Shown here: positions 12,494-31,457 of the stretch, in pieces
Numbering within the stretch: position 1 is the stretch's first letter
Layout of the letters: each line of letters opens with the position of its first letter
Source of the DNA: a candidate division SR1 bacterium Aalborg_AAW-1
GTDB taxonomy: Bacteria; Patescibacteriota; Gracilibacteria; Absconditabacterales; Absconditicoccaceae
Direction of reading: 5' to 3'
Length of the DNA stretch: 64,000 bases
NCBI GenBank assembly: GCA_001007975.1
Contig: CP011268.1
Coordinates: 496,001-560,000 of the forward strand
Translations under genes and position numbers: made by a program
The notes under the pieces: model-generated
Database searches by the model: none
Told to the model about the DNA's origin: nothing
What the model saw: the letters and a program-made list of their open reading frames with translations, nothing else

Positions 12494-13531
12494 ATGTATA
12501 AAAAATTAAGTTATGATCAATTATTGAAGCTAAAAAGTTGATTCTTTGAGTCATTAAGTTCAATATTGAAAAAAAATAAATATCAAACACTGAAAGATTA
12601 TCTTCATATAACTTCTAAACAGGGAGAGGTAGTCTATCACATTGCTAGACAAGAATATATCTGGAGAACAGTATTTGTACATGGTTCTGATCAGGTTATT
12701 TTTTATGATGAAAGAGAAAAAATAGAACTTCATGCCGACAAGGCAATTCTTGCAAAAATAGGAGCACTGATAAGAGATACAAAGAAAATAGCTGCTCAAA
12801 AAAAATCTGCAGTATCGATAGAACAAACATTGCTGAAAGCATTTGATGAGGGAAAACTCAGTGATATCGGAGGTAAGGGCTATCTTGTCTATGATATTGA
12901 AACATCATATACCACCAATGATTTGAAAAAAACTGAGTTCTATATTGGATATGCTTATATTGTACAGGGATGAAAAGGTATGTATAAATATATTGATAAA
13001 TCAAATTTAACAAAATTTTTAGAATACCTCATCGATTTTGATGGTTATATTATTGGGTTCAATAGTTTGGCCTTTGATAATCCTGTAACGGTTCATCAAT
13101 GACTTACATTCGCTGATCGTTATAGTGATGAAGAATATGAACGTTTGCTTGCTCTTGTTAATAAGAAATCATTAGATATTTTTCAGTTTGTCTGGTGAAT
13201 TACTGGTAAAAGAATGGGTCTGAATAAACTTTCAAGATCATTAGTTGGATTAGGTAAGACTTTAGAGTCTGGGAAAGAATCAGAAAATCTTCGACAAACC
13301 TATCTTGAGGGTGATGAAAATGCACTCAAAATACTCAATAACTATTGTAAAAATGATGTAAAAATGACCTATCTTTCTTTGTGGTATATTCTCTATTTTC
13401 AAAAACTTTCATTAGATGATCAAGATCATGAATATACTATAGAAGAATTTATTGCCTTGTCGAATAAGGAACAAGTTGAAGAAGATTTGTCTGAACAGAA
13501 TGATAAGTCTCATACTATTTTTTCTGAATAA
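12494..13531 (+). CDS. DEDD-family 3'-5' exonuclease-like protein
   Basis: 345 residues. The RNase H-like exonuclease fold is indicated by three ordered motifs: YDIETSY (Exo I, residues about 133-139), GFNSLAFDNPV (Exo II) and NNYCKNDVKMTYLSLWY (Exo III, with Tyr-x(3)-Asp spacing). These supply the acidic residues that bind two metal ions. The N-terminal 120 residues are unrecognised. It could act on DNA or RNA ends. It stands alone between a terminator and the orphan transcription unit. Four TGA codons are read as Gly. Membership of the DnaQ-like/RNase_H predicted-exonuclease group is my best assignment. Confidence 0.75.
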
Positions 13532-13565
13532 AAGAAAAAAAGTACTAAAAAAAGTCCTATTTTTT

Positions 13566-13593
13566 TTGACAAAAAAGAATTTGCGATTATAAT
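13566..13593 (+). promoter_or_regulatory. Full-consensus sigma70-type promoter
   Basis: TTGACA at 13566-13571, 16-bp spacer, TATAAT at 13588-13593. It matches consensus at all 12 positions and strongly resembles the promoter at 62406. The inferred start is near 13600. Confidence 0.8.
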
Positions 13594-13599
13594 GATCTT

Positions 13600-14455
13600 G
13601 TCCATGAGGTAATACCTAGTGGATCTATACTTCGTATGAAGAGAGTATCTCTTCTGAGTTCATTATCAGATTCCATAACTACCGCATTTGAAGATACTGT
13701 TACTATTATAAATAGTGATATGAAATACTATGAAGTACTAGGTATATAAGATAGAGAATATAACTCGCTTTAGACAAATACAATTCCAATATAAACAAAA
13801 ACAAAAAAGTACGGCGATGAGAATGCTCTTGTAGTATTTCACAGCCAACTTGAGTGAAGTGTATCATATCACGACCTGTTTCAACAGATTCTTGATTGAT
13901 TATCCTTACTTACTCATTTGTCTGAAATGAAATTGTTTTACAATATATGAAAAACTCCTGAGTTATTCTCATGTATTATCTTTTATCCTGATAGTTCTGG
14001 TAAGTATCACCTATGTATATTGCTTACCTATTGACGAAAAGAAGATAGATCAGCCTTATGCTACATAGCAACATATAACCGTATCAGATGATGTCTTTAC
14101 TAACGTATAAGATACTATTATGTATTTTCTTAAGAAACGCGTCTTGAGAAGAAAATAATAGTATTGTAAGTAGGAGTAATCCCTTCACTTTGTTATTATC
14201 GAGTTGTTCTTGTGCTATGAGTTGTGAATTGAAAGTCTACCATAAGGTAATGAGGAGTAATATCATAATACCATAGATCAAACAGTATGTTCATGAGATT
14301 CTTATTTTATGAGAAGTACTATAACAAACAATGAATAATCCTGACAATAGTTGAGTGTCGCGATAGTAAAATGGTAATTTGGTACTGTAATGAATATCTC
14401 TATCAAGTATAGAATATGAAGATGACTGCTGTTCTAGAAGGCAGTTGCTTTTTTT
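13600..14455 (+). ncRNA. Orphan transcription unit, candidate long structured RNA
   Basis: A perfect promoter and a terminator frame about 850 nt with no convincing gene. The 5' part looks folded: ATACCTAGT (13612-13620) is the exact reverse complement of ACTAGGTAT (13737-13745), and it encloses a GAAGAGA-gta-TCTCTTC hairpin (13638-13654) and an ACTATT-ata-AATAGT hairpin (13702-13716). A further stem of 13 pairs with a 3-nt bulge is at 14123-14157. Signatures of RNase P RNA, tmRNA, SRP RNA or group I/II introns are not seen. Two overlapping frames are open under code 25 around 13795-14112 and 13835-14077, but neither has a good start; a decayed gene is the main alternative. Confidence 0.45.
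14423..14455 (+). terminator. Terminator of the orphan unit
   Basis: TGACTGC pairs with GCAGTTG (7 pairs, two of them G-T) across an 11-nt loop, followed by CTTTTTTT. Confidence 0.75.
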
Positions 14456-14461
14456 ATACAC

Positions 14462-14484
14462 AAAAAAAGAGACAGGAGCCTCTT
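14462..14484 (-). terminator. Terminator of trhO
   Basis: On the minus strand AAGAG, an 8-nt loop, CTCTT and a T run, 13 bp beyond the trhO stop. Confidence 0.65.
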
Positions 14485-14496
14485 ACATTAGAATAA

Positions 14497-15633
14497 TTAT
14501 CTACTGTTTTTTAACCATTCATTCTCTTGAAACCATTGAGCAAGATATTCTTTATCAACTAATTCTTCTTTTTGGCTTGTTGTATGTGGAAAGTGTTTGT
14601 CGACGACAAATTCATCTAAATGTTGTTGTACCATTCTAATAAACTCCGCTTGTTGAAGTAATCAAGCTTTTACATCTCAACGTAATGCCTTATAATTGAA
14701 ATCGTCAAAACTATCATTTTTTACTAATCCATCTTGATTTGCTTTATCAAAACACTCTTGTGAACAAAATCAGCCATGTCTTTTATATTGTTTTTTTCTT
14801 GCGATAATGCGTGCATTACAAGGACTATACCTACAATTCTCACAATTATTTGTTTCTAGGTCAGAATAGATACATTTCCCTATGGTAGTATGAGTATCTT
14901 CATCTCCTACTTTTTTACTAATAACTCCATCAAAGGTATACAGATTTCCAAGCCAGTTACCATCATTGTGTTTATTGACGTATTGTACAACTCATCCTTG
15001 AAGCGCGTAGAAATTATCGATTCCTTTTTCTTTAAGCATGACTGATAATTTATCACATCTGATACCTCAGGTACAGTACATGAGTACTTTTTTGTCCTTA
15101 AATTGATTTTTATAGTCATCTAACAGGTTTTCCACTTCACGAAAGTTGATAGTGCCTGCAGGAATAGCATGTTTAAAATGTCCTAGTTTATATTCATAAC
15201 TATTTCTCATGTCGAGTATCACCCAATCTTTGTTGTTGTTATCAATCACTTCTTTGAGTTCTTGATCAGTAAGTTCTTGGAGAGATCTTTTGTATGCTTG
15301 TTCAGTAATGGTTGTTCATAAAGCTACAATTTCCTGACGATATTTTACGATCATCTTATGAAACATATGCTTATCTACAGGAGAAGATTTTGTATCGATT
15401 TGATCTTCTAGATCAAAAAAATAAGGATTATTTTTCAAAAAGAGTTTATAAGCTGCTAACTGTCCATTATTACAAGTAGCAGTAGCACTGATTCCCTCGT
15501 TTCCTATATAAATACGTCACTTCATACCAATATCAGTACAGAAATTAAGATGTTTTTTTACTTCTGTTAGTGGATCATGAATGTCGACGAATTTGTAGAA
15601 TGTAATAAGATGATAATGAGTGCGATGATGCAT
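14497..15633 (-). CDS. trhO: tRNA uridine(34) hydroxylase TrhO
   Basis: 378 residues, rhodanese family. The N-terminal acylphosphatase-like region contains GNEGISATA. The rhodanese domain has DWVILDMRNSYEY, HFKHAIPAGTINFRE and the active-site loop YCTGGIRCDKL; one Gly of that loop is TGA. A C-terminal segment with CENCRYSPCNARI and CSQECFDKA supplies the Cys cluster typical of the family. TrhO uses oxygen to make 5-hydroxyuridine at tRNA position 34, widening wobble decoding. ATG at 15633 gives the usual N-terminus. A leader hairpin precedes it. Confidence 0.9.
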
Positions 15634-15658
15634 GATTATTAGTTGCAAGCTAATAAAT

Positions 15659-29305: not shown

Positions 29306-29309
29306 TAAT

Positions 29310-29333
29310 AAAGGGAGTTTTCTCCCTTTATTT
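29310..29333 (+). terminator. Terminator of the lipoprotein gene
   Basis: AAAGGGAG, TTTT loop, CTCCCTTT, then ATTTACTTT. Confidence 0.85.
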
Positions 29334-29359
29334 ACTTTATTCTTATACTTTTATGTTAT

Positions 29360-29653
29360 ATGAAGTTAAAAAATATATTAAAGAAGATTATTATAATTTT
29401 CGTATTCATGCTCTTAACTTGATTTATAATAGGATTATTAAGATGACTTCAAAGAGAAGATTTACAATTTGCTATATGAGCTGACCGTATGTGTTTATCA
29501 TCTGAAATTCGTGGAGCTTATCCTGATCGAGAATTTTATAATATTTCTGTAGATAAGCTTGGCTTATTACATTGAAATTGGAATTTTTTGAGACGTTTTT
29601 ACTTGTACTATAATGATTCTATATATTTAAGTACATTATTTTGTCAGAAATAA
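29360..29653 (+). CDS. Small single-span membrane protein, unknown
   Basis: 97 residues. One membrane segment (KKIIIIFVFMLLTGFIIGLL), then about 65 residues, probably external, with two Cys. Four in-frame TGA codons, so it is invisible under code 11. No family recognised. Confidence 0.6.
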
Positions 29654-29712
29654 AAGAGATTAATATAATTATAGATCTTGTTTAATTTTATTTATTTCAA
29701 GCTATTAATAAT

Positions 29713-29738
29713 ATTCTGCTATTATGGCAGAATTTTTC
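29713..29738 (+). terminator. Terminator downstream of the small membrane protein
   Basis: ATTCTGC, loop, GCAGAAT, then TTTTC. Confidence 0.75.
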
Positions 29739-29743
29739 TTATA

Positions 29744-29770
29744 TAAAAAATCTCCCATTTGGGAGAGATT
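29744..29770 (-). terminator. Terminator of dnaJ
   Basis: On the minus strand CTCCC-AAAT-GGGAG within AATCT/AGATT arms, followed by a T run; 47 bp beyond the dnaJ stop. Confidence 0.8.
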
Positions 29771-29816
29771 CTTCGCAAACTCAGAATGACAGAATATACA
29801 GAGAGATTATAAGAAT

Positions 29817-30875: not shown

Positions 30876-30933
30876 GAATATAATCATATAATATGGTAAA
30901 GGTAGTAAGTTTAATCTACTGATTGGTAATATT

Positions 30934-30960
30934 GTAGCACTTACTATTTGTAGGTGCTAT
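30934..30960 (-). promoter_or_regulatory. CIRCE-like HrcA operator
   Basis: Two 9-bp arms separated by 9 bp, on the plus strand GTAGCACTT-N9-AGGTGCTAT. Consensus CIRCE is TTAGCACTC-N9-GAGTGCTAA; TAGCACT and GTGCTA are kept. It overlaps the dnaJ -10 edge, as expected for heat-shock repression by HrcA. Confidence 0.65.
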
Positions 30961-30986
30961 AGTAATTATTTTTTCGAAAATTGCAA
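30959..30986 (-). promoter_or_regulatory. Promoter of dnaJ
   Basis: On the minus strand TTGCAA (30986-30981), 16-bp spacer, TACTAT (30964-30959). Confidence 0.55.
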
Positions 30987-31357
30987 GTGTTTTCGAGAAT
31001 GTATGGAATGAATATGAGCATATATCATAATTTCTTGATACTATTCTATATATAGTGTCTTGTGGTGTATCTTATCTACTATATGTAGATATAATAACAA
31101 CATCTTCAAATAAATAGAGTGAAAACAAGAGAAGAATTGTAGAAATAAATATATGAAAAAGAATAGATAAAAACTCTCTTTTAGATCAAGTGATTTTTGA
31201 TAACTAAAAGTTAGCGTTCATTGGTGTATAATTTTCTAAAAAAAATCTCTTTTTTGAAAAGAAAAACATTATATATACTGTGTTTTCTTGATTATTTTTT
31301 TTAATTATTATCCGCTTGTTTTTGTAGAGTATTATCGTATCACCATTACATTGTTAG

Positions 31358-31406
31358 TACGTGATATAGTAGTCCCTACTCTAGTATAGCTACTATATAT
31401 AGTGTA
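31358..31406 (+). promoter_or_regulatory. Tandem NrdR-box-like repeats before nrdB
   Basis: TACTATATATAGTGTA (31391-31406) fits the NrdR palindrome; a weaker copy TACGTGATATAGTAGT is at 31358-31373. The two are 33 bp apart centre to centre, about three helical turns, the usual layout for the ribonucleotide-reductase repressor. Confidence 0.6.
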
Positions 31407-31457
31407 TTATGTTATAGATATCCTTCTTTTTTATTTTTTGCGTGATTAGTAGAGAGA

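Follow-up and report, generated by a model that had tools for sequence, protein, structure and literature searches.

GOLLD, ROOL, and OLE are ornate large bacterial RNAs, and GOLLD is often longer than 800 nt (PMC12286853). The long abundant RNA of L. salivarius is 520 nt in length, is carried on a megaplasmid, and has a measured, extreme expression (PMC5643018). The locus considered here is a putative transcription unit in a 64-kb window (the whole stretch of DNA that was analysed; G000:C1:496001–560000) of a genome consisting of a single contig of 1,044,756 bases. The unit is like GOLLD, ROOL, and OLE in being long, gene-free, and of comparable length, with a group of tRNAs 1.5 kb downstream. 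It differs from them in its low G+C, in folding that does not clearly rise above the background of the genome's gaps, and in its surroundings, where no phage or prophage context was seen; all three families were absent from its Rfam matches up to E 10. It shares with the L. salivarius RNA a restriction to one lineage and the character of a long non-coding transcript, predicted in the present case, but it is chromosomal and predicted from sequence, whereas the L. salivarius RNA resides on a megaplasmid and its expression was measured. We do not file the unit as a member of any of these groups and treat them as possible analogues for length and lineage restriction. RNase P RNA and tmRNA, as long independent RNA genes of the same genome, offer a further likeness, although their G+C is 44–46% (rnpB 44%, tmRNA 46%) compared to 31.5% for the unit. 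Identification of the unit with either was rejected, as rnpB is found at G000:C1:892365–892717 and the tmRNA gene (ssrA) at positions 2034–2428 of locus L049.

Judging from code-25 ORFs that match Pfam families yet contain TGA codons, TGA is read as an amino acid in this genome (code 25, TGA = Gly). Genes were assigned from codon usage by a finder that had been trained on genes of the window; it recovers both neighbors of the unit and misses some genes, as the loci of relatives showed. By this finder the genome is compact (87% coding), and the interval 13532–14496, between an exonuclease-like gene and a rhodanese gene, exceeds in length every other gene-free stretch of the 1.04-Mb genome when rRNA, tRNA, rnpB, and tmRNA are set aside. 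Only three other gene-free intervals of at least 400 nt pass the same filter; one of them, 982641–983405, appears on reading to contain an ORF start. The interval and its flanks contain the following features, in window coordinates:

12494–13531, + strand: PolB-type 3'-5' exonuclease-like gene (PF10108), the upstream neighbor of the orphan unit
13566–13593, + strand: sigma-70-type promoter TTGACA-N16-TATAAT, matching the consensus at 12/12 positions
13600–14455, + strand: proposed transcript of ~857 nt with no recognizable gene; putative start ~7 nt past the −10 box, end at the T run
13601–13623, + strand: 5'-terminal hairpin UCCAUGAGGU-AAU-ACCUAGUGGA (pair probability 0.93; z −3.1)
13624–14413, + strand: predicted closing helix 13624–13636/14401–14413, which would join the 5' and 3' ends (12 pairs, p 0.87; prediction only)
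13636–13749, + strand: short ORF of 37 aa (MKRVSLLSSLSDSITTAFEDTVTIINSDMKYYEVLGI), candidate coding content, with its ATG 42 nt past the −10 box
13638–13654, + strand: perfect 7-bp hairpin GAAGAGA-GUA-UCUCUUC (z −2.7)
13726–14002, + strand: predicted 23-pair helix 13726–13753/13977–14002 (p 0.94; prediction only)
14111–14165, + strand: long hairpin of 11 + 11 pairs (z −6.2 alone)
14420–14456, + strand: intrinsic terminator GACUGCU ... GGCAGUU followed by a U run, ending at ~14455
14497–15648, − strand: UPF0176 rhodanese-domain gene, the convergent downstream neighbor, with its own terminator at 14467–14484

An earlier note on this DNA had described a 12/12 promoter and a terminator bracketing sequence without a convincing gene, and each part of that description was confirmed. 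The promoter at 13566–13593 is one of only 19 perfect matches genome-wide (spacing 15–19), while a reversed control pattern gave none, and the terminator-like hairpin (GACTGCT/GGCAGTT) is followed by a T run that ends at ~14455. Fourteen of the 18 other perfect promoters lie 26–83 nt (mostly 26–46 nt) 5' of a same-strand ORF start, so the perfect promoters look functional, and these sequence comparisons make it very likely that they are promoters in use. Three more overlap or adjoin ORFs, whose starts were probably set too far 5' by the gene finder, and for the last one the next ORF is 483 nt away. Promoter-like sites matching at least 9 of 12 positions occur at chance level (40 observed vs 39.5 expected); only the perfect class is therefore informative, and within it the 13566 promoter clearly stands apart in that no ordinary gene follows it. 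Across the perfect promoters of the genome (loci L038–L056), 13 of 19 have 16-nt spacing, and the leaders behind them (~20–40 nt) show no obvious Shine-Dalgarno motif. Three near-identical members (L050–L052; G000:C1:814130, 816014, and 818588) share an upstream inverted repeat (TCTCTCATGAA.TGAGAGA) and sit among a row of large ORFs, which may represent a tandem gene family.

No protein gene was detectable on either strand of 13532–14496 with the codon-usage finder, Pfam, or PHROGs. Period-3 power over the unit is 1.01, compared to 2.9 for the lowest 1% of coding segments, which amounts to no period-3 signal. The longest stop-free run spans 102 codons, a length reached by 13% of shuffles. Ten open fragments compared with Pfam and PHROGs returned no match worth naming, and the 102-codon fragment found no credible protein match among 40 genomes.

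The earlier note had recognized none of the common long RNAs here and had proposed a covariance search against Rfam and a comparison of the locus in related genomes. The Rfam 15 covariance-model search agreed with it, finding no family at the gathering cut-off; the best match up to E 10 (snoR17; E 1, 22 bits vs a cut-off of 60) is clearly chance. The comparison yielded no homologue: a DNA search (E 1e-4) of 48 other genomes of the order, which include no second species of the genus, detected no relative of the unit, and an identical search found rnpB in 27 of 49 genomes (its own included). DNA searches of 59 relatives and of phages gave merely short or A-rich chance matches, and viral contigs gave no match. 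Gaps of similar length in the relatives have no similarity to the unit, and some contain genes that the finder missed. Two covariance models, each built from a single stretch, identified no credible relative in 59 genomes; their matches, in relatives and at other places in the genome, were weak (E 0.03–0.9) and either short or, where checked, inside genes, and the one full-length weak match, in genome G007, was rejected as it overlaps an opposite-strand gene. No paralogue was found in the unit's own genome. As far as can be seen from these searches, the unit would be present only in its own lineage.

Synteny of the two neighbors is not conserved in the relatives, and a scan of genome contigs with the upstream gene gave only two distant loci. 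By protein identity the nearest genus is that of G010, where a different stretch of ~400 nt, also gene-free, lies behind the exonuclease-like gene; beyond it comes a gene that, on our own reading of its sequence, we take to encode an ECF sigma factor. Neither the stretch nor the gene matches the unit. The genome under study has its own gene similar to the latter, at C1:982407–982613. Directly 3' of the exonuclease-like gene in G010 (L185:371–535, minus strand; G010:C3), a stretch of ~150 nt folds strongly, begins with a weak promoter-like sequence, and ends in a clear terminator; it may be a small RNA and has no Rfam match.

Folded in full, the unit reaches −209 kcal/mol, 30 below its shuffles (z −4.7 with 20 shuffles and −4.0 with 40), and this excess of −30 kcal/mol is the largest among 72 window segments, most of them coding. 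As background, 45 gaps were sampled from the genome; their z has a mean of −1.5 (s.d. 1.7), and their fold excess, in kcal/mol per 100 nt, a mean of −1.7 (s.d. 1.9). Against these, the whole-unit excess of −3.5 kcal/mol per 100 nt lies about one s.d. from the genome's ordinary gaps, and the + strand thirds of the unit have z values of −1.2 to −1.8 and excesses of −1.7 to −3.6 kcal/mol per 100 nt. The minus strand of the unit also has some fold excess. Folding of the unit thus exceeds that of shuffles and coding DNA and is not clearly beyond that of intergenic DNA from the same genome.

The individual helices described in the earlier note survived in part. An exact long-range pairing of 13612–13620 with 13737–13745 exists in the sequence; it did not stand out clearly from chance, the unit having nine exact 9-mer pairings compared to 3.6 in shuffles (4% of which reach nine), and it is absent from the predicted ensemble, where the 5' hairpin and the 23-pair helix take its arms. 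Neither 10-mer and 11-mer pairings nor local perfect hairpins are in excess over chance in the unit, as judged from shuffles. Both of the hairpins called perfect are present, and that of 13638–13644/13648–13654 is indeed perfect with 7 pairs, while 13601–13610/13614–13623 has 9 pairs and one mismatch. The stem at 14123 was understated at 13 pairs, being part of the 11 + 11-pair hairpin at 14111–14165, which ranks only 12th among local hairpins in the 64-kb window.

Several other gene-free stretches of the genome were noted for their folding. The second large one, C1:97227–98184 (L117:17227–18184; 958 nt), has fold excess on both strands, which is as suggestive of a DNA element as of an RNA. 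It contains a palindrome of ~28 bp (CTTTGCACAATGTACCTTGTGCAAGG), with copies of ~88–97% identity in about a dozen genomes of the order; several of these copies (L171, L172, L174, and L178) lie within 890–1000-nt intervals where the finder placed no gene, and some contigs terminate at the palindrome. The interval is away from the GC-skew extremes and has no Rfam match at the cut-off. Kinship with the unit was rejected, there being no sequence similarity. Within the window, the 582-nt gene-free interval 30876–31457 (G+C 25%) shows a modest fold excess on each strand and, near 30930, a hairpin of 15 pairs, the 511-nt gap 29306–29816 (G+C 25%) has no Rfam match, and the 856-nt segment from 29300 is second in fold excess among the 72 segments.

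Of the alternatives to a unit that yields RNA alone, the strongest is the 37-codon ORF, which the earlier note does not mention and for which the unit would serve as mRNA with a long untranslated 3' part. The ORF begins at a distance from the −10 box like that seen between most other perfect promoters and their ORF starts, it likewise follows a leader with no obvious Shine-Dalgarno motif, and period-3 power over the first 150 nt of the unit is 2.38. Its codon score of 0.013 falls between the noncoding and coding distributions, ranking in the top 11% of same-size noncoding ORFs and, among real gene starts, in the bottom 15%, and the coding/noncoding ratio is therefore near 1. With no family match (Pfam, PHROGs) for the 52-codon frame containing the ORF, two 5' hairpins that overlap or flank it, and ~700 nt left unexplained, we regard a small-protein mRNA as unlikely. 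The unit might instead be what remains of an old gene, native or acquired, that decayed while its promoter and terminator survived. Such an origin is consistent with a G+C of 31.5%, as coding DNA (33.5%) comes nearer to this value than do the window's other gaps (27%). It is also consistent with the stop-free stretches of the + strand, where the longest (102 codons) shares its frame with others of 52, 47, and 26 codons. Those runs nevertheless match shuffles, no period-3 signal persists, the open fragments have no protein family match, the 102-codon fragment found no credible counterpart in the 40 genomes, and the genome holds no paralogue. A compact genome would also be expected to shed such a remnant. 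Derivation from the ECF-sigma-like gene in particular was rejected, since tblastn of the G010 gene on the unit gave chance matches only. Overall, a gene relic seems rather improbable.

It is also conceivable that nothing here is functional and that the promoter is a chance match in neutral AT-rich spacer. The chance-level frequency of weaker sites (40 vs 39.5 expected for at least 9/12) and predicted folding that is ordinary for the genome's gaps would both fit, but perfect sites number 19 against 0 in the control and mostly stand at gene starts, and a terminator closes the unit; we consider this very unlikely.

The reading we favor, with a probability of roughly 45%, is that the unit specifies a lineage-specific long non-coding transcript. 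Its sequence signals leave an independent orphan transcription unit well supported, and a functional structured RNA as the product is possible. As a long non-coding transcript, the unit would be transcribed from the perfect promoter starting near 13600, with transcription stopping at the terminator ahead of the convergent rhodanese gene, and the product would be an RNA of ~857 nt with no conserved protein. This product would function at the RNA level, the simplest role being that of a long regulatory or scaffold RNA, with 5' and 3' ends that may be held together by the closing helix; both fold and role come from single-sequence prediction only. The stricter proposal, a genus-restricted structured RNA of ~857 nt that is closed by the 12-pair helix and stands outside every described family, appears doubtful. 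In the earlier note, a strong promoter driving no gene was taken to argue for a functional RNA. That premise holds and is strengthened by the genome-wide survey of perfect promoters. The structural argument for a functional folded RNA does not carry through, given gap-like folding, G+C that is not raised, no Rfam family, and no homologue in 48 other genomes of the order, and the structured-RNA reading is unproven because folding is not clearly stronger here than in the genome's intergenic DNA at large.

A brief literature search found no described work on non-coding RNA in code-25 candidate phyla, the group to which this genome belongs. Should the unit be merely spacer or a relic, it would illustrate how weakly perfect promoters and striking hairpins argue for structured RNA unless intergenic DNA of the same genome is compared. 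If the unit is in fact transcribed and selection maintains it, a highly reduced genome would carry an RNA-only gene of unusual length.
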